This document shows, in pieces, positions 9,120-25,112 of a stretch of DNA of 64,000 nt. Source of the stretch: Sediminibacterium salmoneum NBRC 103935 (GTDB lineage: Bacteria; Bacteroidota; Bacteroidia; Chitinophagales; Chitinophagaceae). Location of the stretch: positions 2,360,813 through 2,424,812 of the forward strand of contig NZ_KI866530.1 of the NCBI RefSeq assembly GCF_000511175.1. The letters are read 5' to 3'. Numbering within the stretch: position 1 is the first letter of the stretch; each line of letters starts with the position of its first letter. The translations under genes were made by a program, and so were the position numbers. The notes beneath the pieces are model-generated. The model saw nothing but the letters and a program-made list of their open reading frames with translations, ran no database searches and was not told the origin of the DNA.

Positions 9120-9192
9120 GGTGCGGTAGCTCAGTCGGTAGAGCAAAGGACTGAAAATCCTTGTGTCGCCGGTTCGATCCCGGCCCACACCA
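9120..9192 (+). tRNA. tRNA-Phe (GAA)
   Basis: 73-nt cloverleaf: acceptor 9120-9126 / 9185-9191, D-arm GCTC…GAGC, anticodon stem AAGGA/TCCTT with loop CTGAAAA (anticodon GAA), variable loop GTGTC, T-arm GCCGG-TTCGATC-CCGGC, discriminator A at 9192. CCA is not encoded. One acceptor pair (position 5-68) is a C·A mismatch. An intrinsic terminator follows directly. Confidence 0.95.
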
Positions 9193-9228
9193 CAAGAACC
9201 TCAACAGCAATGTTGGGGTTTTTTGTTT
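9191..9228 (+). repeat. direct repeat copy 1 (tRNA-Phe 3' end plus terminator)
   Basis: The 38 bases from the last acceptor base of tRNA-Phe through the terminator T-run recur at 14734-14771 with two adjacent differences; the last 31 bases are identical. The two copies bracket 5.5 kb that contains the large helicase gene, as att-like or duplication-derived repeats would. Confidence 0.75.
9199..9224 (+). terminator. intrinsic terminator of tRNA-Phe (repeat copy 1)
   Basis: Stem CCTCAACA (9199-9206) / TGTTGGGG (9211-9218), loop GCAA, then six T. The stem has one G·U pair. A near-identical copy is found at 14742-14767. Confidence 0.85.
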
Positions 9229-9718
9229 CCGTACATGGGATTGTCCTTTCTTATTCAATATCCACTAGTGCTTATGTAATTGTTTTTTATTTTTTGTTCC
9301 ATTTTAATTTAATTTTTGTCAAGGAGGCTAAAATATAAGTTCGGATCAAAGTTGCCTCATAAGTAAACATTATTGTAACAATCCAATCAAATAATTAAAT
9401 TAAAATATACTACTACTTAAAGAAACACAGCTAATTCCTATTGACGTTTAATATGTTGATTAACAAAAGAAAAAGATGGAAGCATAAAGAGAGGCTATCC
9501 CAAATTGCCCTCACGAGATTTTTATTTAGTTCATAGTATAGATGAAATTCATGATAATGAATTTCTAGATACTTTTAGGACTAGACATACAGTGAAGTAA
9601 CTATTGAAAGTTAATTTAAAATAATTATCAATTAACATACAACTATATTCTAGCACGTGGTTCAGATTGCACCATAAATCACAATAGAAAATTTCCAAAT
9701 TGTTAATTTGGAAGAAAC
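9229..9718. other. AT-rich gene-free stretch downstream of tRNA-Phe
   Basis: About 490 bases between the tRNA terminator and the 3' end of the helicase gene. It is visibly AT-rich and has no convincing gene, RNA or promoter. The only protein-like signal is the short frame at 9460-9600, listed separately. No integrase or recombinase remnant was recognised. Confidence 0.6.
9460..9600 (+). pseudogene. possible C-terminal gene remnant
   Basis: An open frame of 46 codons ends at TAA 9598 and is closed upstream by TGA 9457. It has no ATG start. The translation includes GYPKLPSRDFYLVHSIDE and ends FRTRHTVK, which looks more protein-like than the surrounding AT-rich DNA. It may be the tail of a gene cut off when the neighbouring element arrived. 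Family not recognised, and chance cannot be excluded. Confidence 0.2.
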
Positions 9719-12700
9719 TTATGATTTTTTCAAAATCAATTGAGGTAGGATAATTTTTGATTCTTTGTCTTTTGCTTCGTCTTTCCAATAAACAATAAAG
9801 TTCACTTTAGCTTCCACCATTCTGAATCCCTTGTCATATCTGTCTCTCAATATTTCCCTGAATTTTTGAGAGAATTTACAAATTAAATCTCCATTGTAAT
9901 TCCCTAATCCATCTTCCATCACTTGAAGAGTAGAACCACTAAATAGTTTGTTGATTCTATGTTGTACAAACTCAAAATATCCTAATTGAACATCCTTATG
10001 TGTTAAATACAATGCAATTTGTTCTGGCTCTGAATATGTATTTGAATCTGATTTGTAAAACAAGGAATCAGTCGAGTAGTTTTTTAAATAATTCCCGTTG
10101 TAGTGTATTGATAAATTAGATTTTACTCTTGTGATTGCTACATATAACTGGCGTTTGTCTTCATCAGTTTGTGGCATAAAATTGTTCAATAATAAAAATA
10201 CATTATCAAACTCCTTCCCTTTGGCTTTATGAATTGTTGATACATATACTATTTCTGAATCAATTTTTATAAAATCCTCAATTTTTGATTCGAACAACAA
10301 AGACCTCCAATCACTTTTGTATTTCTTTATTGTATTGGTTTCTTCAAAAGTTTTGATAACTGAAATTGCCAACTCTTTTTTGGAGCTGGTTTTGATATGG
10401 GTTATTAGTTTTTGTTTTGCATTTGCCCAGTCCTCTTCAAATATTATAGGGCTATCTGTATTCGCATTAATTATTTCAGAAAAATACCGAAGTTCATAAA
10501 GGTTGCTCAAATTGAATCCATCATTTGACTGGATCAACTTAGCTTGAACTCCTTTTTGTAATAATAAACTGGTAAGAACTAATGCTTCTTCGTTGGTTTT
10601 GGTAAGTACACAACTTGATCCCGAAAGATCAGCCTTACTTATATTATCAGAAAGAGGTACGATTATGTTATTTTTTTGGTATTCTGTAATTTGAATTATA
10701 CCATTTTGAGATTGACTGGCAAAACACGGGTCGGTTTTCAGCCTTTTACTGATTGTCGATGCCCACATATTGGAGAAGGATACAATATTGTCTTTACTCC
10801 GATAATTCTCTGTCAATTCATATTTAATAGCACCTTTTTCTGAAATTAATTCTTGCATAAAAGCAGCATCTGAACCCCTGAATCCATAAATATTTTGATC
10901 ATCGTCTCCAACAAGAATGACACGCATCTCTTCGTTCTGTTCCATTAAGGCTTTCACTAGTTCGTACTCTTCTTTGTTCATGTCCTGTGCTTCATCTACT
11001 ACCAAAACAGTTTTAGTAATTCGGAATGTTTCTATATCTCCGGATCTAATTTTTTCTACAGCAGTATTGATAATATTGCCCGATTCCAAAAGACTGCCTA
11101 CTCTCCCCAACAGGTCAAAACAATAAGAGTGAAAGGTTTTTATCTCAATGAAATTGGCAGCATTACCAATAAGATCCATTAATCGCTTTTTAAATTCGGT
11201 GGCTGCTGATCTTGAAAAAGTAAGCATTAATAGTTGTTCGTGCTTTACGTCTTCTGCTAATAAAAGCGAAGCAAGTTTATGTACCAATAATCTTGTTTTT
11301 CCGCTTCCAGGACCAGCTGCTACAACTATATATTGATTTGCTGAATCGTTTATTATTTGTAACTGAGCTGGCGAAAGCGATCCAAACAATTTCATGAACT
11401 TTTCCGGTGTTAGGGTTCGCCGTATATCATCCTGTCTACTACCTGGAAAGTATTTAGATAAAAATGATGCATAATTTAACCTGAAATAGTCATCTACAAA
11501 CTGCAAAGAATCACTATAGTTGCGAATCATTTTTTTTGCATATTCTCCTACTATATGAATCTGCTGTACTTTTTGCTGATAAAACTGTTTCAATTTTTCA
11601 TAGTCGCTCTCTTTGTATTGTATTCGATTGTTCTTTTCAATTCTGTCAATGGTAAGTTTATTATGTACTACTAAAAAACCTCCTTCAATCTTTATTGCCT
11701 CAATTCTAGAAAGGTAAAACAAACTGTCTTCTATGTCATCTATACTGGCTTTAAAAGCAAACATACCCTGCTCTTTTTCAATCATCTCTTTTAATTCCTG
11801 TACAGAGAATTCAACTAAAACATCTTCTTGTTTGATATCTGCTACGTTTAATTCTAAGGCTTTCTTGTTTAAGTACTCCGTTATCATTTTTGCCAACATA
11901 TGGCGCTTTTCCTGTTTCGCCATAAATGAATCTTTGTCAATCAACAAAACAATTTGTACATGATTCCTGGAATATTCCAAATTGTGACGCTTAATCCAAT
12001 TTTTAATAGCCCAAAAATTAATAATTGTTTTGAGTTTATTGAGGGAGCTGTCCTTGATACCTGCACTTAGAAACAGTTCTATTATTTCTTTTAGATGATA
12101 TGTTACTTCACCTTCTTTTAATAGTTCAAGTAAAACCTCTTCTTGTCTCCTAAAGCTATTTACTATTGAAAGCGATTTGTTTACCGATTCTGCTTTATTA
12201 ATATAAGCTGTTAGGTCTCTCGTCTGGGCAAGAATGTTTTCTTCTCGCATTAACTCAATATTACGAATAACCTCATCTTTAACTAAGCCCAATTGGTCAG
12301 CGATATAATCTATTCTTGATTCTGCTAATTCTTCTGTTGATAATCGTTTACTTTTACTTGAAAAAAGTTTTTTTATAATCCTAACTGCATTAATTTTTTG
12401 TGAATCCGAGAACCTGTTTGAGGAATAAATTTTATCAATTGCTTCCTGAGCGTTTTTACTTAGAATACTATTCGCAAAAATCCTTGGCATATTTTGTCCA
12501 CGTTTCAAATAGCCCGCATCTTCTAAGGCGGCAATAGCAGTGGTTACTCTTGTTTCAATTTCATTAATCCCATCATCCCAACCTGCTTTCCTTGCAATTT
12601 CAAGTGCCGAGTTTGACGCCCTGTCCCTTGTTTTTGTAATATCCTTTATAGCTTTCCATATTTGATTGATTTCTTTACTGCTAATCTTTGTTTGATTAAG

Positions 12701-14524
12701 TAAAATGAAATGTTTGTCTAAGTCTTCTTCATTAAAAAGAATATAACAGTTGGCATTGATGTTTTCATCACGACCTGCTCTTCCAGCTTCCTGTACATAA
12801 TTTTCCAAGGAATCTGAAATGTCATAGTGTATAACAGAGCCCACGTCACTTTTATCAACGCCCATGCCAAAAGCTGAGGTTGCAACCATTATATTTACCT
12901 CCCCTGCCATGAATGCATCTTGATTTTCAGTTTTTTCGTCTTTATCCATTTTTCCATGGTAGGGCCTTGCCACAAAACCATCTTCACTTAATCTTTTAGC
13001 GAGTTTATAAGCTCTTTTTGTTCTAGATACATAAACAATGGTTGGGCAATTATTGGATTCAATTAAACTCCTTAGCTGATTATACTTTTCCTCTTCATTA
13101 TCTTTTCTAAAAACATTATAATTTAGATTAGTTCTTGATGCATTTGCGCTGAAAACATGGAGACTGTGGTTCAATTTCTCTTTGAAATATGCCCTGATAT
13201 CTTCAATCACCTTTTGTTTGGCAGTAGCTGTAAAGCAAGAAACGGGTATTCTATATTCAAGGCCCTTTTTTTCCTGCAAGTTTTTAATAAAATCACCAAT
13301 AAATATGTAATCAACTCTAAAATCTTGACCCCATGAGGAAAAGCAGTGAGCTTCATCAATGACAAACCGCGCAATTTTTCTTTTTAATAAGAGACGTTCA
13401 ATGGTTACTGATCTAAGTGATTCTGGTGATATATAAAGGAGACTCGCAAACCCACTTTCAATTCTTTCGATTGCTTTGCTTCTTTCAATTGGATCTAATA
13501 GCCCATTAATTGTAACAGCTTCAGTTATGCCCTTTTTTTCAAGATTATCTACCTGGTCTTTCATCAAAGATTGCAAAGGAGAAATAATTACTGTTAATGC
13601 CTTGGCGTTTTCACCACTCATTAATGCTGGAACTTGGAAGGTAATTGACTTTCCTCCGCCTGTTGGAAATACAGCTAATATTGACTCCCCATTAATTGCT
13701 GAGGTAACTGCATCCTGTTGCAAAGGCTCATTACCATAGGTTCGGAAGTTAGAAAAGCCAAAGTGTTTTTTTAAAGCAAGTAAAGGATCAAGGGCTTGTT
13801 TACAATATTCGCAACTTTGTATACAGGGTTTGTTTCTTAGTAAGAAAAGCAAGCGTTCCACATCTGGATAATTTTTTAAAACCCATGGTGGAGTAATGGA
13901 AAATCTATCATCACAATTTAACAAAGACAAAGCATATGCTAAAGCTACAGGTGATGTTTGAATAAATGACTCAAGATCACTTTCGGTGCAAATTTTTCCT
14001 TGAAAACAATTTCTAATAAGACGTTTTAATTGATCCCTATTTATCGAAGTTGAATAATTTAAGTATCTGAAAAAATTTTGAAATCCTTTTTGATCAGACA
14101 AGAGAAAGTAAAGTATTTCCTTAAACTCTTCATTGAGTTTTTGAAAAGCAGATATTTCATCAAAAAAAAGATTTTTAGACTTTATGGAATCGTTTAAAGG
14201 GTTGTTAAGTTCTTCTGTTTGAAGCTTATCATCCTTCAGTAGATGGTGATATGGGTTTTTAGGAAACAATAAAGGAGAAAAAAGAAGCGTGTCAATTGCT
14301 TTATTTAAGCCCCAGGTAGAATCAGCAAAATGCTTTTGCAAATGAACCAAATCATGGGCTATGATATTATGGCCGCAAATAAAATGAGAGCTCTCAACAA
14401 AACTTTTAAATTCGTAAGGTTGGTTTTTATGAAACGTAGATTCGTCAGATAATATACAACCAATGTCAAGCAACTTATTGCTTGTTGGATTTACTTCGAT
14501 ATCAAAAAAAGCGATTAGTGGCAT
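9719..14524 (-). CDS. exonuclease-RecQ-UvrD fusion helicase, 1601 residues
   Basis: Three enzymatic modules are readable. Residues 1-~130 look like a DnaQ-type DEDD 3'-5' exonuclease (FFDIEVN; CGHNIIAHDL). About 270-620 is a RecQ-type SF2 helicase: FPTGGGKS (about 286), VIDEAHCFSSWGQDFR, ATSAFGMGVDKSD and QEAGRAGRDE. A long middle part (about 620-1040) includes winged-helix-like sequence. About 1050-1560 is a UvrD/PcrA-type SF1 helicase: AAGPGSGKTRLL (about 1068), VVDEAQDM, VGDDDQNIYGFRG, STIHKAKGKEFD and LYVAITR. The RecQ zinc cysteines are not evident. Ordinary RecQ and UvrD are 600-750 residues each, so this is two motors and a nuclease in one chain. It stands alone on the minus strand between tRNA-terminator repeats in AT-rich DNA. 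A role in DNA repair or phage/plasmid defence is plausible but is inference. Confidence 0.9.
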   Translation of the reverse strand: MPLIAFFDIEVNPTSNKLLDIGCILSDESTFHKNQPYEFKSFVESSHFICGHNIIAHDLVHLQKHFADSTWGLNKAIDTLLFSPLLFPKNPYHHLLKDDKLQTEELNNPLNDSIKSKNLFFDEISAFQKLNEEFKEILYFLLSDQKGFQNFFRYLNYSTSINRDQLKRLIRNCFQGKICTESDLESFIQTSPVALAYALSLLNCDDRFSITPPWVLKNYPDVERLLFLLRNKPCIQSCEYCKQALDPLLALKKHFGFSNFRTYGNEPLQQDAVTSAINGESILAVFPTGGGKSITFQVPALMSGENAKALTVIISPLQSLMKDQVDNLEKKGITEAVTINGLLDPIERSKAIERIESGFASLLYISPESLRSVTIERLLLKRKIARFVIDEAHCFSSWGQDFRVDYIFIGDFIKNLQEKKGLEYRIPVSCFTATAKQKVIEDIRAYFKEKLNHSLHVFSANASRTNLNYNVFRKDNEEEKYNQLRSLIESNNCPTIVYVSRTKRAYKLAKRLSEDGFVARPYHGKMDKDEKTENQDAFMAGEVNIMVATSAFGMGVDKSDVGSVIHYDISDSLENYVQEAGRAGRDENINANCYILFNEEDLDKHFILLNQTKISSKEINQIWKAIKDITKTRDRASNSALEIARKAGWDDGINEIETRVTTAIAALEDAGYLKRGQNMPRIFANSILSKNAQEAIDKIYSSNRFSDSQKINAVRIIKKLFSSKSKRLSTEELAESRIDYIADQLGLVKDEVIRNIELMREENILAQTRDLTAYINKAESVNKSLSIVNSFRRQEEVLLELLKEGEVTYHLKEIIELFLSAGIKDSSLNKLKTIINFWAIKNWIKRHNLEYSRNHVQIVLLIDKDSFMAKQEKRHMLAKMITEYLNKKALELNVADIKQEDVLVEFSVQELKEMIEKEQGMFAFKASIDDIEDSLFYLSRIEAIKIEGGFLVVHNKLTIDRIEKNNRIQYKESDYEKLKQFYQQKVQQIHIVGEYAKKMIRNYSDSLQFVDDYFRLNYASFLSKYFPGSRQDDIRRTLTPEKFMKLFGSLSPAQLQIINDSANQYIVVAAGPGSGKTRLLVHKLASLLLAEDVKHEQLLMLTFSRSAATEFKKRLMDLIGNAANFIEIKTFHSYCFDLLGRVGSLLESGNIINTAVEKIRSGDIETFRITKTVLVVDEAQDMNKEEYELVKALMEQNEEMRVILVGDDDQNIYGFRGSDAAFMQELISEKGAIKYELTENYRSKDNIVSFSNMWASTISKRLKTDPCFASQSQNGIIQITEYQKNNIIVPLSDNISKADLSGSSCVLTKTNEEALVLTSLLLQKGVQAKLIQSNDGFNLSNLYELRYFSEIINANTDSPIIFEEDWANAKQKLITHIKTSSKKELAISVIKTFEETNTIKKYKSDWRSLLFESKIEDFIKIDSEIVYVSTIHKAKGKEFDNVFLLLNNFMPQTDEDKRQLYVAITRVKSNLSIHYNGNYLKNYSTDSLFYKSDSNTYSEPEQIALYLTHKDVQLGYFEFVQHRINKLFSGSTLQVMEDGLGNYNGDLICKFSQKFREILRDRYDKGFRMVEAKVNFIVYWKDEAKDKESKIILPQLILKKS

Positions 14525-14656
14525 TTATAAAAGTTCTTCCAGTACTATCCTTCTAATTTAGTCCAAACCATTCAATTTAAAAAAAATCTTCATCTGTTGT
14601 GTTTGATATTCAGTCAATTAGGTGGAGATAACATCCTTTTACCCCCCCTCTTTCCG

Positions 14657-14735
14657 AAGAGCCATAATCCCATAAAAATCATAGGGATAGAGGTTTTATG
14701 ATGTTTGGGAGAGACTATCTATTGGACGGCTCTCA
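14657..14735 (+). ncRNA. candidate structured RNA or decayed tRNA upstream of an orphan terminator
   Basis: AAGAGCC (14657-14663) pairs with GGCTCTC (14728-14734) over 6 of 7 positions and is followed by A and then CAA, like the 3' end of tRNA-Phe. Inside, TCCC/GGGA could form a D-like stem. No plausible anticodon or T-arm is present, so it is not a working tRNA. A terminator on the same strand follows at 14742 although no protein gene precedes it, so some short transcript or a dead tRNA locus is suggested. Weak, structure-only evidence. Confidence 0.25.
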
Positions 14736-14771
14736 CAAAGACCTCAACAGCAATGTTGGGGTTTTTTGTTT
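14734..14771 (+). repeat. direct repeat copy 2 (duplicate of tRNA-Phe terminator)
   Basis: Matches 9191-9228 at 36 of 38 positions, with the final 31 bases identical. Terminator stem 14742-14749 / 14754-14761 and six T (14762-14767) are intact. No + strand gene precedes it, so it is not the terminator of a visible gene; duplication or element integration explains it better. Confidence 0.75.
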
Positions 14772-14868
14772 ATAATACCGCTGCCTCGAAGAACCTTCAA
14801 TTAACGCTAACTTTAATCTGAACAACTAGCAGGGACAATTTAGACTGAAAGAAGTCAAGCATTATTTT

Positions 14869-15180
14869 ATGGAAAAGGAGAAAGAATATTGGTATTACAT
14901 TGTCCGACAGGATTATACAGATGAAGTTGGAGAAGGGGGTAATTATTATAAGCACGAAGACAAAGGGGAGGCTTTACGAAGAGCTACCAGGTTCATGAAC
15001 TTAAGCATAGAAAACCTGTGTTCGGATTATCGTATGGGAAAAATTCCAGCTCAATTAACGCATAAAATTATATTCCGAATATTTTTTGCAGAATCCCTTG
15101 ATGGTGGTAAAACCTACAAAGAAGTAATAATTGAAGAAAAGCGATTGGCTGCTTACATAGGAAATATACCCTTGTATTAA
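14869..15180 (+). CDS. small hypothetical protein, 103 residues
   Basis: Starts with ATG at 14869, close to an A/G-rich stretch. It is soluble and charged, with no signal peptide or membrane segment (MEKEKEYWYYIVRQDYTDE…). An N-terminal part rich in Trp/Tyr (EYWYYIVRQDY) is followed by a Lys/Glu-rich half ending YIGNIPLY. Family not recognised. It ends 113 bases before the fic start and shares the AT-rich accessory segment, but no toxin-antitoxin relation to Fic can be shown. Confidence 0.6.
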   Translation: MEKEKEYWYYIVRQDYTDEVGEGGNYYKHEDKGEALRRATRFMNLSIENLCSDYRMGKIPAQLTHKIIFRIFFAESLDGGKTYKEVIIEEKRLAAYIGNIPLY

Positions 15181-15195
15181 AATAGCACTAATTAA

Positions 15196-15294
15196 TTGCG
15201 GTGAATGATTTGTGTTTTGTCCGCATATTTGCGGCGAAAATGCCTGTGAATGCGGAGAATAAACCCTATATTCACCGCATAAATGCGGCGAATA
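15196..15294 (+). promoter_or_regulatory. palindromic operator array in front of the Fic gene
   Basis: The element (A/T)TGCGG(C/T/A)GAA or its complement occurs at least six times in 99 bases: single sites at 15196-15206 and 15250-15260, and two palindromes at 15215-15240 (CCGCA-tatt-TGCGG core) and 15269-15294 (CCGCA-taaa-TGCGG core). The last palindrome ends on the A of the ATG. Such an array fits binding of a winged-helix repressor, possibly the Fic protein's own C-terminal domain (inference). Confidence 0.65.
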
Positions 15295-16406
15295 TGTATA
15301 TTCATCAACATAAGGACTGGCCAAAATTCACTTGGGACAATGAAAAATTAACAGGTTTATTGGCAGAAATTCGTCATAGACAAGGAAAAGTGCTTGGAAA
15401 GATGGAAGCATTGGGCTTCTCCATTCAGGCTGAAGCAACATTGGAAAACTTAACACTGGAAGTTCTTAAGTCAAGTGAAATTGAAGGAGAAAACCTGAAT
15501 AAACAACAAGTTCGCTCATCAATTGCCCGTAGATTAGGTATGGAAATCAGTGGCCTTGTTCCTTCAGATCGAAATGTGGATGGCGTGGTTGAAATGATGC
15601 TAGATGCTACCCAGTCATTTTCTGAACCGCTTACCGATGAACGTTTATATGGATGGCAGGCAGCCTTGTTTCCGACAGGTCGTAACGGTTTTCATAAAAT
15701 TACTGTGGGAGCATGGCGGACGGGGAATAATGGTCCTATGCAAGTTGTGTCTGGAGTTATTGGGAGAGAAAAAGTGCATTTTGAAGCACCGGAAGCTTCT
15801 AAGTTATCCAAGGAAATGGCCGACTTTCTTGAATGGTTCAATACAGAAAATCATATTGACCCTGTACTTAAAGCGGCTATTGCGCACTTATGGTTTTTGA
15901 CTATTCACCCATTTGAAGATGGCAATGGACGTGTTGCCAGAGCAATTGCTGATATGCAGCTTGCCCGTGCAGATAAAACTCCGGAAAGATTTTACAGTAT
16001 GTCAGCCCAAATTAGGATTGAGCGCAACGACTATTATACCATACTTGAGAAAACGCAAAAAGGCTCTCTTGATATTACCGAGTGGCTTGAATGGTTTCTA
16101 CATTGCCTGGGTAAATCATTTCATAAGATTGAGGGTACGCTGGAGCAGGTAAATCGTAAATCAAATTTCTGGGAAGCTTTGGCACACCTTGATTTGAATA
16201 ATCGTCAGCGATTACTGTTAAACAAACTGCTCGAAGGTTTTGATGGCAAACTGAATACTTCTAAATGGGCAAAGATTGCAAACTGTTCTACTGATACAGC
16301 TTTGAGAGATATTCAGGACCTAATAAAAAAGGAAGTTCTAGTAAAAGAAGAAGCAGGCGGAAGGAGTACTAGTTATGTATTAAATGAAATTGATAATATC
16401 ATGTGA
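15294..16406 (+). CDS. Fic family protein with N-terminal DUF4172-like domain
   Basis: 370 residues from the ATG at 15294, chosen because MYIHQHKDWPKFTWDN is the usual start of this family; the frame is open further upstream only through the operator repeats. The N-terminal DUF4172-like region contains SSEIEG (Ser60…Glu64-Gly65), matching the inhibitory motif [S/T]xxxE[G/N] of class II Fic proteins. The Fic core has HPFEDGNGRVAR (catalytic His205). The C-terminal ~90 residues look like a winged helix (SKWAKIANCSTDTALRDIQDLIKKEVL). Fic enzymes usually transfer AMP from ATP to a protein hydroxyl group. The winged helix plus upstream palindromes suggest autoregulation. The target is unknown. Confidence 0.92.
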   Translation: MYIHQHKDWPKFTWDNEKLTGLLAEIRHRQGKVLGKMEALGFSIQAEATLENLTLEVLKSSEIEGENLNKQQVRSSIARRLGMEISGLVPSDRNVDGVVEMMLDATQSFSEPLTDERLYGWQAALFPTGRNGFHKITVGAWRTGNNGPMQVVSGVIGREKVHFEAPEASKLSKEMADFLEWFNTENHIDPVLKAAIAHLWFLTIHPFEDGNGRVARAIADMQLARADKTPERFYSMSAQIRIERNDYYTILEKTQKGSLDITEWLEWFLHCLGKSFHKIEGTLEQVNRKSNFWEALAHLDLNNRQRLLLNKLLEGFDGKLNTSKWAKIANCSTDTALRDIQDLIKKEVLVKEEAGGRSTSYVLNEIDNIM

Positions 16407-16510
16407 TGTTCTTAAATTCATATGATAAAATGAAATAATAAATTATAGGTTGACTTATTATATCCAAAAGAATTAACCACTATAATTTACTTGTGACTTA
16501 GCTAGCCTAT

Positions 16511-19237
16511 ATGAAATTTATCATTACCATTATTTTTATTTCATTTGGCTTGGTTGGATTATCCCAAGGCTCAAGTATCAAAGGTCATGTGTTTGACAGT
16601 GTTAATAATCGGTTTATTGGCAATGCATCTGTAGTATTACTAAACAAAAAAGACTCAATTATTTTAGGCGATACACGTAGTCAGTCAAATGGCGAATTTC
16701 TGTTTTCAGGTTTTAGATTTAATCAACCTTTGTTGTTGTTTATTAGTTATCCGGGTTATGTCAGTTTAACTAAAGAAGTTGTAGCAAATAACACTACAAA
16801 ATCAGAAATTGATTTAGGTAAGATTTCCTTTATATCTCAGGTGGTCTTGTTACAAGAAGTGGTTGTAAAATCTAATATCCGTTCTATTCAATTAAGAGGG
16901 GATACTTTACAGTATTCAACATCAGCCATTAAATTACCTCCCAATGCATCAGTTGAGGACTTGTTGAAAATATTACCGGGACTTCAGGTTGATCCAAGTG
17001 GTAAAATAACTGCACAAGGGAAAAAAGTTAAAAAGGTATTGGTTGATGGAGAAGAGTTTTTCAGTGATGATCCTGTTTTTGTAACCAGAAACCTTCGTTC
17101 TGAAATGATCGCCAATGTTCAGGTTTATGATAAAAAGTCAGATGCAGCGGTTTTTACCGGGATTGAAGATGGCGTAAAAGATAAAGTTATCAACCTGCAG
17201 TTAAAGCAAGATAAAAGTACAGGTGTATTTGGAAAGCTTGAAACAGGAACTGGTAAGGGAATTCAGTACACACCACAAAATACTCAGGCAATGTTAAATG
17301 CCTTTAAAAAGAAACAAAAGTTTGCAAGTTATTTTTCATCTAATAATATCGGACAATTTGGACTAGGGTCTACAGAAAAAAATCAACTTGGCTTGAACAA
17401 TGAGCAAGAGAAGTATGATGGAAAGGGGTTACCTGAATTTTCTACTGCTGGGTTACATTTCGATAATAAATGGAATAATGATTTCAGCTCGTTCAATGGA
17501 GATTATTATTATTCCATTTTTAATATATCTGGTTTTGATTCTAATTATACCAATACTTTTTTACCATCAGGAACAATCCGCAGGTTTGCCAATACTGATT
17601 TTCAAAAAAGCGGATTTAGTCACAGAGCTAATGTTTCGTATAAACAAAAAGTAAGCAAATCAGCAAATATCACTTTAAGTTCAGTTGCCTCATTTAGTAA
17701 AGGCGAATCTGGTCAGCAGTATACAGCTTCTGATATTGATAATAACGAGCAATTACTGAATCGAATAGGATCTCAAAGCACAACAAGCAATGACAATAGA
17801 AAGATTAAGACCACTTTTTTATATCAACAAAAATTTAAAAAGGCAAGTAGAACGCTGTCGGTTTCCTTTGATTATTTATTTACTGGCGATGATGAACAAC
17901 AAGTAAACTTGTCTCGTACTGAGTTTTATAATGGAAAACCTATAATCGATAGTATACGGAATTTGGATCTATTGCGAAGTAGAAGTCAAGCACATCAAAG
18001 TATGTTGATGGGGATCAGCTTTTCTGAGAAGATAAATAATTCATTATCGTATATTATTTCAGTAAATGGAACCAATGATGCCAATGATGATAAAAATTTA
18101 TCAAGGCGTTTTCTTAATCCAGGTGGAAACATTGATCCTTCTTTCTCTACAATGCGAAAGGATTCTAGGAGACTTTATACTGCTAGTTTAAGTGTAAATT
18201 TTAACAGAGGAAACCTCCAAGCCTCTTTTGGTAGTGCGGGTGGTACAAATCAATTAACATTAATTGACAATATACTTTCACGTAAACTGGATAAAGTATT
18301 TGATGTATGGAGACCATTTGGAAGGGTTGATTATTCAATAAATGATAATACCAGCCTCGGAATTAGTTATAGAGGCAATACTTTATCACCTGTTTTTCAG
18401 GAACTTTCTCCTTATGCATTCAATAATTCACAGTTGATAACATTTTCTGAAAATTTATTGATACGAAATGCATTTTCAAATAAACTGTCAATTAGCTACG
18501 AATCCTTTAAGAGTTTGAGCAAGACGTTTACTGCTATTGTAATGAATGTTACAAGCGTTAGAAATCCAATTAAAATGCAATCATCTATTAATACTAGTGG
18601 CGCTTATTCACTACAATATGTAAATATGATTGGCATGATAGATCGGGATTTTGAAATAACTGGATTTTACTCAAGGCCAATCGAGCCGTTGAAAATACAA
18701 TTCACACTAGATGTAAGCAGTAAAACAGGAGAAAACTATAGTTATATCAACACCTCACTTAATAAGCTCAATTATTCAACATCCTCAGTTGGCTTGTTAT
18801 TTTCTAAAAACAAGCCTGGAATATATGATATGCAATTAGGTGGTACTGTTTTGTATGATATTAATAGATTGACAGAGGGCATAAAAAATACTCGCAACGA
18901 TTTTTTCACTTATAAAATGAAATCATCAGTTGACTATTATATAAAAGATAAAATACAGTTTCATAGTGATATTGAATTTTTTCGCCAAGGCAAGAACATG
19001 ATATTTGCCAATAATTTTGATCGATTAATCTGGAACTTATCTCTTAGTAAAAGTTTTCTATCAAATAATCAGCTTTCTTTAAAAGTTTCAGGAAACGATT
19101 TGTTGAATTCCAATGCTGGTTTTGCAAGATCAGCATCTTCCACTTTTTTTTCAGAAAATCGTTATTTAACTATTCAACGATACTTTATGCTAACAGCTAC
19201 CTGGAATTTCACAAAGTATAAACAGATAAAACAATAA
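16511..19237 (+). CDS. outer membrane beta-barrel receptor with carboxypeptidase-regulatory-like domain
   Basis: 908 residues with a signal peptide (MKFIITIIFISFGLVGLSQG). Residues ~22-100 form a carboxypeptidase-regulatory-like domain (IKGHVFDSVNNRFIGNASVVL…). A plug-like part follows (PNASVEDLLKILPGLQVDPSGKI, VKKVLVDGEEFFSDDP), then a barrel of about 650 residues with many aromatic/Gly strands. This is the OMP_b-brl_3 type often annotated as TonB-dependent receptor. A GLPGLI-family gene starts 3 bases after its stop, a pairing common in Bacteroidota. The ligand is unknown. The gene is more AT-rich than the SusC gene at the window start. Confidence 0.88.
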   Translation: MKFIITIIFISFGLVGLSQGSSIKGHVFDSVNNRFIGNASVVLLNKKDSIILGDTRSQSNGEFLFSGFRFNQPLLLFISYPGYVSLTKEVVANNTTKSEIDLGKISFISQVVLLQEVVVKSNIRSIQLRGDTLQYSTSAIKLPPNASVEDLLKILPGLQVDPSGKITAQGKKVKKVLVDGEEFFSDDPVFVTRNLRSEMIANVQVYDKKSDAAVFTGIEDGVKDKVINLQLKQDKSTGVFGKLETGTGKGIQYTPQNTQAMLNAFKKKQKFASYFSSNNIGQFGLGSTEKNQLGLNNEQEKYDGKGLPEFSTAGLHFDNKWNNDFSSFNGDYYYSIFNISGFDSNYTNTFLPSGTIRRFANTDFQKSGFSHRANVSYKQKVSKSANITLSSVASFSKGESGQQYTASDIDNNEQLLNRIGSQSTTSNDNRKIKTTFLYQQKFKKASRTLSVSFDYLFTGDDEQQVNLSRTEFYNGKPIIDSIRNLDLLRSRSQAHQSMLMGISFSEKINNSLSYIISVNGTNDANDDKNLSRRFLNPGGNIDPSFSTMRKDSRRLYTASLSVNFNRGNLQASFGSAGGTNQLTLIDNILSRKLDKVFDVWRPFGRVDYSINDNTSLGISYRGNTLSPVFQELSPYAFNNSQLITFSENLLIRNAFSNKLSISYESFKSLSKTFTAIVMNVTSVRNPIKMQSSINTSGAYSLQYVNMIGMIDRDFEITGFYSRPIEPLKIQFTLDVSSKTGENYSYINTSLNKLNYSTSSVGLLFSKNKPGIYDMQLGGTVLYDINRLTEGIKNTRNDFFTYKMKSSVDYYIKDKIQFHSDIEFFRQGKNMIFANNFDRLIWNLSLSKSFLSNNQLSLKVSGNDLLNSNAGFARSASSTFFSENRYLTIQRYFMLTATWNFTKYKQIKQ

Positions 19238-19240
19238 TTT

Positions 19241-20020
19241 ATGTTGAAATCATTTCAGCTTTTACCTGTTTTTTTAATTTGTAGTGTTTTATGTTTTTCT
19301 CAGCAATCAATAGTTGATAGAGGTTTAATAGTCTTTGAACGAAAAGTCAACACATATGCAGTCTTACCCGATTTTTTAAAGGGATCTGAATTAGTCTCAC
19401 CAGATGCTTTACCCACCTATCTTCAGCGTTATCGTCAAGAACATCCACAATTTTGGGTTGATAGTTTTCAGTTGATTTTTAACAAGGATTCAACTCTATA
19501 TCAACCTGTTGGAAGTATTTCTCCTTTTTTACACGGCACAGGTGTGCCAATGGCTGATAAAAATCGGGTATTCAGTAGTTTATCAACTAATCAATTTTTC
19601 GCCGAAAAAAATGCTTACAATGAATCCAGGATTATTCAGGATTCTTTGGTAAAAATCCGGTGGAAGCTTACCGATGAAACTCGCGATATAGGAGGGTTTG
19701 AATGTAGGCGAGCGAATGGGCTTGTTTATGATTCAATATATATTGTTGCTTTTTATACCGATGCAATTATGACTAAAGGAGGGCCTGAGGGTTTTCACGG
19801 ATTACCTGGGATGATATTAGGTCTTGCTCTTCCCCATTATCATATTAGTTATTTTGCCACCAGAATTGATCCTAAACATTATATTGGTAATAGTATCTAT
19901 GCTGCCTTTTCAAATCATCCCAAAGGTATTAAGCAAGTAGATTTCTTTTCTGAAATGATTAATTATCTAAAAAATAAGAAATTAGATAACGATTGGATGA
20001 AGTCATTTATTCGTCTTTAA
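19241..20020 (+). CDS. GLPGLI family exported protein
   Basis: 259 residues with a signal peptide (LLPVFLICSVLCFSQ). The family-defining motif is present as GLPGMILGL (within GGPEGFHGLPGM), preceded by the usual WYTD-like FYTDAI segment and a conserved IGGFECRRA. GLPGLI proteins are of unknown function and usually lie next to outer membrane barrel genes. Here the gap to the preceding receptor is 3 bases, so the two are almost certainly cotranscribed and may act together in the periplasm (inference). Confidence 0.9.
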   Translation: MLKSFQLLPVFLICSVLCFSQQSIVDRGLIVFERKVNTYAVLPDFLKGSELVSPDALPTYLQRYRQEHPQFWVDSFQLIFNKDSTLYQPVGSISPFLHGTGVPMADKNRVFSSLSTNQFFAEKNAYNESRIIQDSLVKIRWKLTDETRDIGGFECRRANGLVYDSIYIVAFYTDAIMTKGGPEGFHGLPGMILGLALPHYHISYFATRIDPKHYIGNSIYAAFSNHPKGIKQVDFFSEMINYLKNKKLDNDWMKSFIRL

Positions 20021-20116
20021 ACTAACATTCTCTTATAATATAACAGCAACCTGACATATATCATTTTCTGGCTGTAGAATAAATTGGAACTTTATGTATA
20101 TCCTAAACTAATACAT

Positions 20117-21242
20117 ATGAAGACCAAATTGATTGCCAGAAAACTTCCTATTTACCTACTCGGATTGAGTTTACCGTTTTTGTTGGCCACACAGAAAAAA
20201 TCGGATTTGATGGTTTCATCCTCTGATACCACCATCAAAACAACAGCTGATCGTACCTTAATTCCCGATCAGATTCCTGCCTATCCTCATTTGATTGGCC
20301 CGAATGATGTTGCACTATATAGTAAATATGGATATGGTACCTGGCAGTATGGTACGGGAGTACCTCATCAGAAAAGACTGGATTTAATGGCTAAAGATTA
20401 TAGACCAGAGGCTGTAAAAAACTCAGCCCTGCTGGCTAACTTTTTTTCTATTTCCGATATACATATTACAGATGAAGAGTCACCTGCTCAGGCAGTTTAA
20501 TATGGTTTCAAGTGGGATATCATTTCTGGTTACTCTGCAGCGATGCTTTATTCCACTCATATGCTGGATGCAGCAGTGAGAACCATCAACCGCTTCCATA
20601 AAAAAACTGCTTACGACTTTGGACTTTCTTTAGGAGACGCCCTAAACAGCCGAGGATATTATATGGGTGTAATAGATGGTAAAACACCCGATGGAAAAAT
20701 TGCGGATGCTGGTCCGGTAGCTAATTTTTAAAACCTCCGATGGTTGCTTCCGATTCCAACAGAAGATTTATTTCAAGAAACGAATTCATGGACACTTTTG
20801 TTAAGAGCAGCAGTTCTCCCGCAGGTCATGGATTTACTCCGTAAGCCGTAGCTTCCGGATTTGCAGGCTATACTTTTGAACCCAAGTCGGACCTTCCGTT
20901 GAAAGTGATTGTGTTGGACAATACCAACAGACATGATCACCTTGTAAAAGATGGCTATGGCAAAGGATATCTTGATAAAGAGCGTTATGATTGGCTGGTG
21001 AAAGAATTAGATAAAGGTCAGGCCTTGAAATGTTAGCCTTGCTGCATACTTATCCCAATTTTATCAAGTGGGTTGCAGGGCACAGACACTTAAGTGTAAT
21101 TACTTCTCAACCATCTCCAGATTCAAAGCGACCTGAGCTAGGCTTCTGGGAAGTAGAAACCCCTTCTCTCCGTGAGTTTCCTCAGCAGATCAGGAGTTTC
21201 AGAATTACCCGAAACAGCGATCAGACCATTTCAATTCTTTAA
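20117..21242 (+). pseudogene. broken calcineurin-like metallophosphoesterase (TIGR03768-like)
   Basis: Pieces of one protein lie in order. The first has an N-terminal signal region and FSISDIHITDEESPAQ, and is stopped in frame by TAA at 20498. The same frame resumes (WDIISGYSAAML…GLSLGDALNSRG) and stops at 20731. A shifted frame carries MVASDSNRRFISR…KVIVLDNTN with in-frame TAA at 20842 and TAG at 21034. A last piece includes VAGHRHLSV and a normal C-terminus at 21242. The metal motifs DIH, GDA and GHRH survive, but the GNHD block is missing at the first frame junction. At least two stops and two frame changes or deletions mean it cannot make the enzyme. Confidence 0.85.
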
Positions 21243-21318
21243 TTGAAGTGCTTTTTAATAACCTGTTTATTGATTAGTTTATATTTAATGACGTATTTTT
21301 AAAAAAAGATCCTTACTG

Positions 21319-23517
21319 ATGGAGCCGTTCGCTCAAACAAGTCCAATTAACCCTGCCATATTGGATGCCATATATCAGTCCTTACCGCAGCCCACTTTTA
21401 TATGGAAGTATGAGGAAGAAGACTTTTATTTAATTGGTTTTAACCGTGCCGCAACGGAATTTGCAAGTAATCAAATAGGTCTGCTGCTTAATAAAAAAGC
21501 AAGTGAAATTTATAAAAACGAACCTGAAATTATTGCCGATTTACATCGATGCCATATTGAAAAAAAATCTTTTGATAAAGAAATCAATTACAAGTTCAAG
21601 TCTGTAAAGGCTGAAAAATATTTACATATCAATTATCTGTATGTCAATTCAGCTATTATAGTTGTTCAGCCCGAAGAAATTACAGAAAAGAAAAAACTAG
21701 AGCAATTGCTTATAGCCAGTGAGAATAGATTCCATAGCCTGGCTGATAATACTTTAGTGGGTACTTTTATTATTAAAGAAGGTCTTTATACTTATATTAA
21801 TAAAGAGTTTGCAAATATTTTTGGTTATAACACAGCGGATATAATTAATAAACATCAGGACGAATTGATTTTTGAAGAGGACAGATTAATTCTTCATCAA
21901 TATCTTTTTAATAGCAGAAAGGAAAATAAAATACACTCTTGCGAATTGAGGGGATTGCATAAGAACAAGTCAATTATTCATGTTGAGTTATTTGGTGCAA
22001 TTAAAAATATAAACGGACAAGATGCGGTACTGGGGGCATTACTTGACATTACAGAAAGAAAAAAGGCTGAAAACAGATTAATAGAAGCTCAATCTGCTGC
22101 CAATGTTGGCAGCTGGGAAACAGACTTGTCTGATATGCATGTTTACTGGTCCGATCAAACCTTTGCTATATTTGAATTAAATAAAAACACTTTCAGTCCT
22201 ACGCATGATTCATTTCTAAAGTATGTGCACCCGGAGGATAAAGAAAAAGTAGATAAGGCCTTCAAAGAATCTTTTAGTTCAAAAGAATATAATGTTATTC
22301 AACATCGTATCATAACTCCAAAAGGAACTATGAAATTTGTTGAAGAAAGATGGAAATTGTCTTTTAATTCACACAATGAGCCTGTCAGGGTTTTTGGAAC
22401 CTGTCAGGATATTACCGATACTATTCATTATCAGGAAAAATTGGCTTTGTCTTCCTTAATTGTGAACTCATCACATGATGTAATTCTTAGTATTACACTT
22501 GATGGCACAATCACATCATGGAATAAGGGAGCCGAAAAAGTTCTTGGGTATAGTGATCAGGAAGTAATTGGAAAGTCAATATATATACTTATTCCAGCCG
22601 AACTTCATGATGAGGAAAATGATATTAACACTAAAATAAGAGAAAAGCAAATAATCGACCGATATGAGACAGTAAGAATTAGAAAAGATGGAACCATGGT
22701 TGATGTTTCTTTAACCGTTTCACCTATTATCAATGAATTTAATCAGGTGATAGGAGCCTCAAAAATTATGAGAGATATATCTGCTCAAAAAGAAAGCGAG
22801 TATGAGAAAGCTCAGATTATGAATGATTTAATTCAAAGAAATAAAGATCTGGAACAATTTGCCTACATCGTTTCACATAATCTTAGGGCGCCGGTTGCAA
22901 ATATTATTGGTGTGACTAATCTTTATAAAATGTCTGATATTGAAGCATCAGAAAAACTGGTTTTGATTAATGCATTAAACCAATCTGCTGTTGCGCTGGA
23001 CAATGTAATAAAAGATCTTGGTCTTATTTTACAAATCAGAAGGGAGGTGAATGAACAGAAAACCTTCATTCGTTTTTCTGATATTATTTTAGAAATAAGT
23101 CAGTCCATTGAAAATCTAATTAAATCAGAAAAAGTAGTTTTTGAACTTAATTTTTCTGAAGTAGATCAAATAACATCCATTAAATCATATATCTATAGTA
23201 TTTTTTATAATCTTGTTTCTAATAGCATTAAATACAGACAACCTCAAGTTAACCCATTAATTAAAATTAAATCTACAGTTGTCGATAATCAGATAGTTAT
23301 CTATTTCTCAGACAATGGCTTAGGGATTGATTTAAAAAAGAATAAAGATGCTGTATTTGGATTATATAAAAGATTTCATACCCATATTGAAGGAAAGGGC
23401 ATGGGTTTGTTTATGATTAAAACACAGGTTGAAACGCTTGGTGGAAAAATTAGTATCAGAAGTGAACTCAATAGAGGAACAGAGTTTAAGATTGAGTTAC
23501 CCGCGAAAACAAACTAA
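21319..23517 (+). CDS. multi-PAS sensor histidine kinase
   Basis: 732 residues with no membrane segment, so probably cytoplasmic. About four PAS domains are seen: ~10-125; ~130-250 (SLADNTLVGTFII…); ~255-375 (PAS_3-like, NVGSWETDLSD); and ~380-495 (SHDVILSITLDGTITSWNKGAEKVLGYS). The kinase follows: phospho-acceptor His520 in YIVSHNLRAPVANI, N-box NLVSNSIKY, G1 DNGLGIDL and G2 GKGMGLFMIKTQVETLGG. No response regulator is adjacent. The next gene, 21 bases on, is a photolyase/cryptochrome-like flavoprotein, so a shared light or redox input is conceivable but unproven. Confidence 0.9.
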   Translation: MEPFAQTSPINPAILDAIYQSLPQPTFIWKYEEEDFYLIGFNRAATEFASNQIGLLLNKKASEIYKNEPEIIADLHRCHIEKKSFDKEINYKFKSVKAEKYLHINYLYVNSAIIVVQPEEITEKKKLEQLLIASENRFHSLADNTLVGTFIIKEGLYTYINKEFANIFGYNTADIINKHQDELIFEEDRLILHQYLFNSRKENKIHSCELRGLHKNKSIIHVELFGAIKNINGQDAVLGALLDITERKKAENRLIEAQSAANVGSWETDLSDMHVYWSDQTFAIFELNKNTFSPTHDSFLKYVHPEDKEKVDKAFKESFSSKEYNVIQHRIITPKGTMKFVEERWKLSFNSHNEPVRVFGTCQDITDTIHYQEKLALSSLIVNSSHDVILSITLDGTITSWNKGAEKVLGYSDQEVIGKSIYILIPAELHDEENDINTKIREKQIIDRYETVRIRKDGTMVDVSLTVSPIINEFNQVIGASKIMRDISAQKESEYEKAQIMNDLIQRNKDLEQFAYIVSHNLRAPVANIIGVTNLYKMSDIEASEKLVLINALNQSAVALDNVIKDLGLILQIRREVNEQKTFIRFSDIILEISQSIENLIKSEKVVFELNFSEVDQITSIKSYIYSIFYNLVSNSIKYRQPQVNPLIKIKSTVVDNQIVIYFSDNGLGIDLKKNKDAVFGLYKRFHTHIEGKGMGLFMIKTQVETLGGKISIRSELNRGTEFKIELPAKTN

Positions 23518-23538
23518 CCGCTTCGCTGTTATCTGAGT

Positions 23539-25014
23539 GTGAATCATAGGATAGCTATCAATCTTGTCTGGCTGAAAAGAGACCTGAGAACCCAGGATCA
23601 TGCACCCCTGCAAGCTGCAGAGCAGGGGGGGCTTCCTTATTTGATTGTATTTCTATTTGAGCCCTCCATCATCGGGTTCCCCGATACAAGCCTGAGACAT
23701 TTACAATTCCAGTATCATTCGGTATTGGCTATGGATGATACAATGAAAAAGGTTCAGCAAAGGGTCACGGTTTTTCATGCAGAGGCCATAAAAGCGTTTG
23801 AGGAAATCTCCAATCAATACCATATTCAAAATATATTCAGTTATCAGGAGTCGGGAACAAAAATCACCTATGACAGGGATAAACAGGTCAAGGAATTTTG
23901 TACAACCCATCAAATAGCATGGAAAGAATTTCAGAGAGACGGAATTGTAAGAGCCATTCGTGATAGAAAAGACTGGGACAAAAAATGGTATGTCACCATG
24001 CATGCACCTGTTATTCAAAATGAGTACACGAAAAACACTTTACCGGTGTTTGAATCCAAATACAACATACCTCTTGCGCTAAAGAAAAGCCTGGAAGAAT
24101 ATCCTGTATCCTTTCAACCCGCAGGAGAAGAAAATGCACATCGGTATTTACAAACCTTTATTCATGAAAGAGGGCGCTATTACAGCAAGCATATCAGCAA
24201 GCCTTCTGAAAGCAGAAAAAGTTGCACCCGCCTCTCTCCCTATATCAGTTGGGGTAATCTAAGTATCAAACAAGCTTATCAGGCCCTACAGGAAGCACAA
24301 AAGACTTCTTCTTTTAAAGGGCCCATCAACAATGCCATCACCCGATTAAAGTGGCATTGTCATTTTATTCAAAAGTTTGAAGTGGAAGGCAGATATGAAT
24401 CTGAGTGTATTAGCAAGGGATATGAGTTGCTGGAGCATCCGAAAAATGAATCGTTCATAAAAGCATGGGAAGAAGGGAAAACTGGCTTCCCATTGGTAGA
24501 TGCTTGTATGCGTTGTTTGATTGACACTGGCTGGATTAATTTCAGAATGCGCGCCATGCTGGTTTCGTTTTTATGCCATCATCTCTACCAAGACTGGAGA
24601 ACCGGAGTACACCATCTGGCGAAACAATTCTTGGACTATGAGCCCGGTATTCATTATCCGCAGTTTCAAATGCAGGCAGGCACTACGGGGGTGAATACCA
24701 TTCGAATCTATAATCCTATAAAGCAGTCTGAGGAGCATGATCCTATGGGCCAGTTCATAAAAAATTGGATCCCTGCTTTAAAAAATGTGCCAGCAGAATT
24801 GATTCACGAACCCTATAAGATGAGTTTAATGGATCAAACGTTCTGTAATGTTTTTATTGGGAAAGATTATCCTGCACCCATTGTTGAGGTAAATGCTTCC
24901 GGCAAATTTGCAAGAGAAAAAATCTGGAGTCATCGAAATCATACTACAGTGAAACAAGAAAACGCCAGAATTTTAATTACACACACAAGAAATAAAAGGG
25001 TCGCTAAACCATAA
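23539..25014 (+). CDS. divergent photolyase/cryptochrome family flavoprotein
   Basis: 491 residues from a GTG start (GTG AAT CAT). The N-terminal antenna domain is Rossmann-like ([16 protein letters not shown]). The C-terminal FAD-binding domain has [35 protein letters not shown] and [14 protein letters not shown]. Class I photolyases repair cyclobutane pyrimidine dimers using light; cryptochromes are signalling relatives. By-eye alignment to E. coli photolyase through RIYNP/RIFNP puts Gly at the FAD-contacting Asn378 and Pro and Phe at Trp382 and Trp384. The proximal tryptophan of the electron-transfer triad therefore appears absent. Repair activity is uncertain. It lies 21 bases after the histidine kinase. 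Confidence 0.87.
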
Positions 25015-25112
25015 TGGTTAAAAACAGTTTATTTCACAACAAAAATGAAGAATCAATAAATGCCTTTAACTATTAGTTTAGAGGATTTAACATTCACAAC
25101 TAATTTAAACGC

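Follow-up and report, generated by a model that had tools for sequence, protein, structure and literature searches.

The gene and its locus

The window, as we call the whole 64,000-nucleotide stretch of Sediminibacterium salmoneum NBRC 103935 that was analysed, contains an open reading frame of 1601 codons without interruption on the minus strand (9719..14524). The first-pass annotation had described it as an exonuclease-RecQ-UvrD fusion of 1601 residues, a reading borne out by the unbroken frame, the Pfam matches of the motors, an AlphaFold2 (AF2) model of the exonuclease part and the recurrence of the architecture. The strand had to be corrected, as the frame read earlier on the plus strand of 9719-14524 has stops throughout. 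From its N-terminus, the protein comprises a predicted, divergent DEDD exonuclease domain with a helical extension (residues 1-232, limits estimated from the AF2 model, fold matches and residue counts; 13829..14524, minus strand like all parts of the gene) and a C-x3-C-x2-C motif seen in the alignment, which is a putative metal site (C234, C238 and C241; 13802..13825). They are followed by a RecQ-type SF2 motor with the motifs PTGGGKS, DEAH and QEAGRAGRD (residues 250-615; 12680..13777), identified by Pfam, NCBIfam, phmmer against the PDB and the motifs themselves. A middle region, family-specific in profile searches and perhaps containing winged helices according to weak HTH matches (residues 616-1045; 11390..12679), separates it from a compact UvrD-type SF1A motor recognised by Pfam and fold match (residues 1046-1495; 10040..11389). 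The C-terminal domain, of no assigned kind, is beta-rich judging by its AF2 strands (residues 1496-1601; 9722..10039). Relatives share this plan.

A tRNA-Phe (gaa) gene, a possible hotspot anchor, is found at 9120..9193 on the plus strand. The triple-fusion gene had been described as standing alone next to a tRNA; it has no conserved partner and the tRNA is present, but 526 bp beyond the 3' end of the gene. On the other side, the next gene with a family match, 0.7 kb away, codes for a SoFic-like DUF4172-Fic protein (15201..16406, plus strand; PADLOC SoFic at 2.7e-45, Pfam DUF4172 and Fic), a separate candidate defence gene; the 103-aa ORF between the two has no match. Related Fic proteins are also encoded within 700 bp of the family gene at two other loci (L106 and L143). 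Further along the window, 16511-19237 codes for a receptor-like protein with a carboxypeptidase-regulatory domain (G+C 32.5%) and is followed by a gene for a Porph_ging-family protein; this part is perhaps foreign too. The consecutive short ORFs of 138, 62 and 70 aa at 20084-21242 look by eye like pieces of a broken phosphoesterase-like gene, and the first of them has no Pfam match. The G+C content of the triple-fusion gene is 33.4%, versus 39.3% for the window and about 40-41% at eight other loci of the genome; such a low value is not peculiar to this gene, since that of the nearby receptor-like gene is lower.

The exonuclease-like domain

A Pfam scan of the 1601-aa protein found DEAD at 267-442 (whole-protein E 8.7e-31), Helicase_C at 479-585, UvrD-helicase (9.8e-35) and UvrD_C, but missed the exonuclease domain. 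Among the members of the family, 12 of 57 matched DNA_pol_B_exo1, at best with 5.7e-4. The AF2 model of residues 1-263, built from 57 rows, has a pLDDT of 91. A Foldseek search with this model gave Staphylococcus aureus DinG and DNA-polymerase exonuclease domains as best matches, none with E under 0.001. VIA-align returned DinG and other DEDD exonucleases, with Z-scores from 13.4 down to 10.2 among the best 50 rows: S. aureus DinG came at Z 13.4 (rmsd 4.1 over 221 residues), E. coli ExoI at 11.5, Pol III epsilon at 11.4 and Cap18, a protein of CBASS defence, at 10.8.

All 64 aligned rows (the window, 57 GTDB loci and 6 IMG/VR loci) have the putative metal-binding acids D8, E10, D58 and D112, and H52, N53, H93, K97 and P109 are equally invariant. 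A pattern at residues 83-92 had served to find the GTDB rows, and the six rows from IMG/VR were obtained through the same region up to H93-L95 or through residues 49-58; conservation around these search patterns is partly selected for, because the rows were found through those residues. D8, E10, N107 and D112 lie outside the stretches in question, and 23 independent members found by whole-protein or profile search have the same four acids, with N or S at 107. The C-x3-C-x2-C motif is present in 63 of the 64 rows, the last having a gap, and is missing or partial in L031 and L032.

DEDDh and DEDDy exonucleases have a His five residues, or a Tyr four residues, ahead of the last Asp. Neither is found at the expected position (-5 or -4) in the 64 aligned rows. 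At position 107 (-5 relative to D112), 60 rows have Asn, four have Ser and none has His; position -4 is N in 58, S in three and D in three. We equated N107 with the DEDDh His through spacing and the predicted helix; an hhalign comparison with the DnaQ-like domains of the same genome gave an alignment that ended short of the His motif. The N-terminal domain is thus predicted to be a DEDD-superfamily, RNase H-like exonuclease fold with four acids, as the first-pass annotation had it, but one that departs from both canonical motifs. Nuclease activity could be weak or absent, because the position of the DEDDh His is taken by Asn or Ser. This residue may slow or gate the nuclease, and its presence weakens the assumption of an ordinary exonuclease. 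Our literature search found no report of a His-less DEDDh site.

The two motors and the adjoining regions

Among the best 60 of 167 phmmer matches in the PDB, RecQ-type helicases match one half of the protein and UvrD-type helicases the other. Most of the best 25 of 62 PADLOC families matching the window protein are models of DpdF, PsyrT and GajB, with best-matching stretches confined to one half. The RecQ-type motor passes the NCBIfam RecQ subfamily model (277.6 bits versus a cut-off of 219.8), and only positions 5-349 of 591 of the full RecQ equivalog TIGR01389 are matched, at 314 of the 640 required. A complete RecQ motor had been claimed; the core is there, with Walker A, DEAH and motif VI, but RQC and HRDC had no Pfam match up to E 1 in the window protein. 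The middle region may contain a very remote RQC-like winged helix. Among 23 full-length members, Walker A and DEAH are intact in all, and motif VI is substituted in four (L031, L091, L094 and L095).

The UvrD-type motor has the SF1A fold and motifs expected of it, although its size, about 450 residues versus about 645 in UvrD, makes it a compact version of the complete motor first described. UvrD Pfam families are found in 46 of 46 members, and motifs I-VI in 23 members with minor substitutions, Walker A and DE-x-QD being intact in all. In the AF2 model of residues 612-1601, built from 46 rows (pLDDT 81), the UvrD fold occupies model residues 431-884 and matches Deinococcus radiodurans UvrD at Z 38.4 (441 residues, rmsd 5.1). 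Dead P-loops or nuclease acids, which the first-pass annotation would have counted against its proposal, are not what the family displays, with Walker A intact in 23 of 23 members and the acids in 64 of 64 rows.

For the middle region (about 430 aa) and the C-terminal region (about 106 aa), a PDB search at E<=1 gave no sequence relatives. Weak Pfam matches to HTH_Crp_2 in 8 of 46 members and HTH_36 in 4 of 46, at places not listed, hint at winged helices in the middle region. The C-terminal domain is modelled as strands, with pLDDT mostly above 90. HIRAN, a candidate considered for the C-terminal domain, is not among the 25 listed of the 50 Pfam families matched by the rows of residues 612-1601, and these residues of the window protein have no nuclease Pfam family. 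No RecB-family nuclease appeared in the Pfam scan of the window protein or among 25 of the 50 families for its relatives. RecQ and UvrD helicases are both 3'→5' movers, so the two motors are probably not of opposed polarity, unlike those of RecBCD. The first-pass annotation had likened the protein to RecBCD on account of helicases of opposed families plus a nuclease; the analogy fails because no RecB-type nuclease was found and one polarity is expected of both motors.

Distribution and horizontal transfer

At least 581 relatives of the N-terminal domain were confirmed in GTDB contigs, the best 80 of which were analysed. In 60 of these 80 named loci, an ORF longer than 1450 aa matches the N-terminal profile; one of the 60 (L106) has a split after 139 aa. 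Twelve of the 80 relatives have a frame interrupted within the contig (four in isolate records, L154, L165, L167 and L185, and eight in MAGs, where errors are possible), and the remaining partial loci run past the contig end. Separate searches with the N-terminal and middle profiles found the identical 15 of 395 Bacteroidota genomes, that of the window included, with frames of 1601-1731 codons. We therefore rejected a chance ORF or an assembly fusion: chance is untenable because the same architecture recurs in many phyla, and the agreement of the two profiles also counters assembly fusion.

Within the genus, the gene is present in 2 of 121 genomes, its own counted. Named carriers belong to the Bacteroidota, the Clostridia (Desulfosporosinus), Desulfospira and a Lentisphaerae MAG, and the labelled tree rows place members in seven phyla. 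Plasmid copies were found in Bacteroides, Phocaeicola, Aliarcobacter, Nostoc, Sulfitobacter, Thiothrix, Allochromatium, Rhizobium and others, i.e. in Bacteroidota, Campylobacterota, Cyanobacteriota and Pseudomonadota. With the Thiothrix member as a query, 24 plasmid records were retrieved at >=80% coverage, Thiothrix itself included, and the annotation in the plasmid records examined is mostly plain RecQ family helicase. Chromosomal copies are present in the 3.2-Mb contig of the window, in the single-contig genomes G092 and G170 and, with a broken frame, in an Arachidicoccus chromosome (L165).

A phage-borne gene was considered and rejected: of 50,697 phage records, 135 match some part of the protein and none reaches 80% coverage, and a query with the N-terminal domain from a gammaproteobacterial member found nothing there. 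In IMG/VR, 6 of 27 loci match well, one of the six being partial, and PHROGs revealed no structural phage gene among 10 neighbours at two IMG/VR loci. A DNA-level search of 5426 E. coli genomes with a query of 3960 bases, which can miss diverged copies, found none with a single place that matches 80% of the query; short matches occur in 54 of them, with a RecQ helicase in the best five listed.

In a quick tree of 82 rows, with long branches flagged (L031, L032 and others), the Clostridia and Desulfospira are nested among Bacteroidota. Class changes 29 times versus a minimum of 12, for 59 labelled rows in 13 classes (eight labels were assigned by hand), and phylum six times for seven phyla. Since six is the minimum for phyla, transfer is best shown between classes; five chosen cross-class pairs are 80-87% identical. 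Universal vertical inheritance, which the first-pass annotation had set against its own proposal, is not observed, considering the 15 of 395 Bacteroidota genomes and the 29 class changes.

The region between the tRNA-Phe and a PAS-kinase gene (9194..21318) is variable. Against 12.1 kb in the window, G475 has 0.65 kb here, and in G017 the interval is taken up by other genes (about 6.5 kb); neither of these genomes, whose asnS genes are 96% and 99% identical, respectively, has a copy between the tRNA-Phe and the PAS-kinase orthologue. The cargo after the tRNA-Phe varies in the genus, with Fic proteins in G010 and G011, that of G010 being 63% identical to the Fic protein of the window, and SusD-like genes in G017. 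In another genome (G027, locus L101), about 11.6 kb including a 2533-aa ORF separate asnS from the tRNA-Phe, a second insertion point. The other carrier in the genus, G504, has the closest member found (80% identical), and neither asnS nor tRNA-Phe is present within the 20 kb read. Next to a member from another genus (L083 in G149, 77.5% identical), an identical tRNA-Phe lies at a distance of 189 bp and is oriented relative to the gene as in the window, and none of 13 other window proteins tested is encoded in the 20 kb of G149. The 3' end of the tRNA-Phe (18-30 bases, mismatches allowed) has no second copy in window 9201-26000, and a scan of 10 window neighbours revealed no integrase; at L035, a tyrosine recombinase is encoded about 4 kb from the family gene. 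Overall, a tRNA is present within 530 bp at 9 of 101 loci versus about 1.2 expected, a cut-off picked after the distances were known and a count that includes the window itself, and within 2 kb at 13 of 101 versus about 4.3 expected. The expectations derive from the control density of 4 tRNAs per 320 kb.

The family is widespread and constant in its architecture. No description of an exonuclease-RecQ-UvrD protein was found in the open-licence PMC texts searched, among them passages of PMC5512222, PMC6390638, PMC9122126, PMC13092281, PMC10853773 and PMC12458937. PMC6390638 reports a transferred RecQ-like protein in Desulfonema that consists of the ATPase domain without the others.

Neighbouring genes

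Among 941 neighbours at 103 loci, the largest families recur at 4 loci each, and a multi-gene system was rejected for this reason. The count of 103 includes L088 (the same as L144) and L089 (the same as L159), which were left out of the tree, the neighbour scan and the tRNA count. To look for defence genes, we selected the closest gene on either side if it lay within 2.5 kb, which gave 169 neighbours, and scanned the first 130 by name, a set that omits loci after L164 and the window. The control was 130 of 246 random proteins from 16 regions, 10 of them in gene-carrying genomes; it is drawn from Bacteroidota only, and the neighbour set also spans other phyla and plasmids. The PADLOC models were applied without system rules, and their output gives families, not matched members.

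At E<=1e-50, 20 PADLOC families under 14 names were matched among the 130 neighbours (HNH, AbiEi, PDC-S41, MTase_I, PDC-S01, PDC-S37, PDC-S18, Orf5, PDC-S14, REase_III, PD-T4-1, Hhe, HEC-06 and SoFic), versus three families among the 130 controls, all RtcR-type with one member each. At E<=1e-10, 183 models were matched versus 22 (about 12 names), so that the control is not empty at this threshold. The number of defence neighbours is an estimate, because the output lists families rather than proteins: if 12-16 neighbour proteins were matched at 1e-50, Fisher p is 0.0014 to 9e-5, the figure of 16 proteins taking each of the 14 names at its highest member count and being lower if two models share one protein. 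Among the 130 scanned, defence genes are in the minority. The neighbours are nevertheless enriched for defence proteins, against a small and imperfectly matched control, which places the family in the operational class of anti-phage defence genes, being sporadic, mobile and enriched near known ones. The survey thus agrees with the defence-like setting suggested earlier: the gene is sporadic and transferred, has no housekeeping context that is conserved and is found near defence and tRNA genes, with the SoFic-like gene as the example in the window.

Proposed function and alternatives

The genomic context supports a defence role. We think that the protein is probably a horizontally mobile, stand-alone enzyme directed against invaders, phage or plasmid. 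A more specific proposal, to which we give slightly less than an even chance, is that of a cross-phylum, single-gene immune nuclease of 1600-1750 residues, with RecQ and UvrD motors in tandem and of the same polarity and a His-less DEDD domain, that would locate invading DNA by its forks or 3' ends and then unwind and degrade it without partners.

Alternatively, the gene might help the mobile elements themselves, by aiding the replication, recombination or establishment of plasmids and islands at forks and 3' ends rather than by attacking invaders. Plasmids of several phyla carry full-length copies. In Aliarcobacter, ParA is 245 bp from the family gene on the plasmid, and ParB and a replication initiator also adjoin it; SSB and ParA are 2.5 kb and 6.3 kb away on a Bacteroides plasmid; and a ParB-like and DNA-methyltransferase fusion adjoins the gene on an IMG/VR contig (L189, 5931-7655). 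As these copies sit beside partition or replication genes, plasmid maintenance fits too. However, 4 of 103 loci have the ParA neighbour family, chromosomal copies exist (the window contig, G092, G170 and the broken one of Arachidicoccus), and the neighbours are enriched for defence models. We regard this role as unlikely.

As an accessory DNA-repair enzyme, the protein would be a WRN-like exonuclease-helicase to which another motor has been added and which cells retain to tolerate stress. The domain set resembles those of WRN and DinG, which are genome-maintenance enzymes, and selection is compatible with this idea: for two pairs (G149 and G504), Ka is 0.08-0.24 in every domain and Ks is saturated or above 2.4, and therefore all domains, the exonuclease included, are under purifying selection. 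Nevertheless, a repair function seems rather improbable for a gene that is patchy, rare even inside its genus (2 of 121), spread across classes and broken inside the contig in 12 of the best 80 relatives (eight of them MAGs, with possible errors), all the more as the genome encodes further helicases, a 608-aa RecQ, a 795-aa UvrD-type and a 1056-aa UvrD-family ORF.

There is also a small chance that defence operates by sensing, with the Asn-substituted exonuclease fold only gripping the 3' end and the motors or C-terminal domain triggering cell arrest: fold and acids are kept despite N or S at the His position, and the Hachiman helicase is reported to be a sensor, but four invariant metal-binding acids would be unusual had catalysis been lost, and no toxin domain is among the Pfam families listed for the window protein and its relatives. 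Since sensing is a variant within defence, its odds overlap those of the preferred explanation.

As an anti-invader nuclease, the protein would load on invading or replicating phage DNA, either at a fork or on a single strand whose 3' end is free. Its two motors, RecQ and UvrD, are presumably 3'→5' translocases and would pull and unwind the DNA, and the N-terminal DEDD exonuclease would trim the 3' strand. Recognition of the DNA might be aided by the middle region and the C-terminal domain, or these parts might hold the enzyme off until needed, the way dimerisation and ATP act in Hna. We infer the polarity of the motors from family knowledge, and exonuclease activity, target choice and protection against phage are likewise conjectural. 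The simplest machine would use 3' ends or forks as entry points, then unwind and trim, because the motors are expected to move 3'→5' and the DinG exonuclease works 3'→5'; the degradation of single-stranded DNA in this direction by Bacillus subtilis DinG is reported in PMC12525004. According to PMC13381803, Hna, a 3'-5' ssDNA exonuclease with ATPase, is autoinhibited and is activated by a phage SSB, and the Hachiman system is reported to sense damaged DNA. From likeness to these two systems, control by ATP or by DNA structure would be expected.

If our proposal is correct, a widespread unnamed gene with members in seven phyla codes for an immune enzyme, and helicase-nuclease immunity gains a two-motor design. 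The otherwise intact DEDD site minus its usual His raises a biochemical question, namely whether the nuclease is slowed, switched or reduced to binding ends. As a single gene without a conserved partner, the system should be simple to clone and test.

Comparison with known systems

The protein differs from RecBCD and AddAB in having no RecB-family nuclease that we could find and a RecQ-type second motor, 3'→5' by family knowledge. DpdF and PsyrT, the best PADLOC matches (6.8e-98 and 1.2e-81), share the RecQ-type motor, but their best stretches cover just residues 245-730, approximately, of the window protein. Both are parts of multi-gene systems. GajB of Gabija has a UvrD-type motor; PADLOC GajB models match the window protein and GajB structures match the family profile, whereas GajB is a separate subunit with GajA as its partner and no conserved partner exists here. 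WRN, the Werner helicase, resembles our protein in joining a 3'-5' exonuclease and a RecQ motor in a single chain; the bacterial gene is mobile, adds a UvrD motor and has no detected RQC or HRDC.

Hna reportedly has its SF2 helicase at the N-terminus and its nuclease at the C-terminus. In contrast, the exonuclease is N-terminal and of the DEDD type in the present family, and there are two motors, RecQ and UvrD. The likeness lies in the combination of ATPase and nuclease sites in one protein and in a broad distribution, Hna being a 3'-5' ssDNA exonuclease according to PMC13381803. The DEDD-type DinG proteins of B. subtilis and S. aureus have an N-terminal DEDD exonuclease fused to a helicase, as described in PMC12525004, and DinG gives the best fold match to the exonuclease domain (Z 13.4). 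Unlike DinG, the exonuclease of the present family has no His at the usual place and, in the window protein, escapes Pfam, and it is joined to RecQ and UvrD motors where DinG has an XPD-like one.
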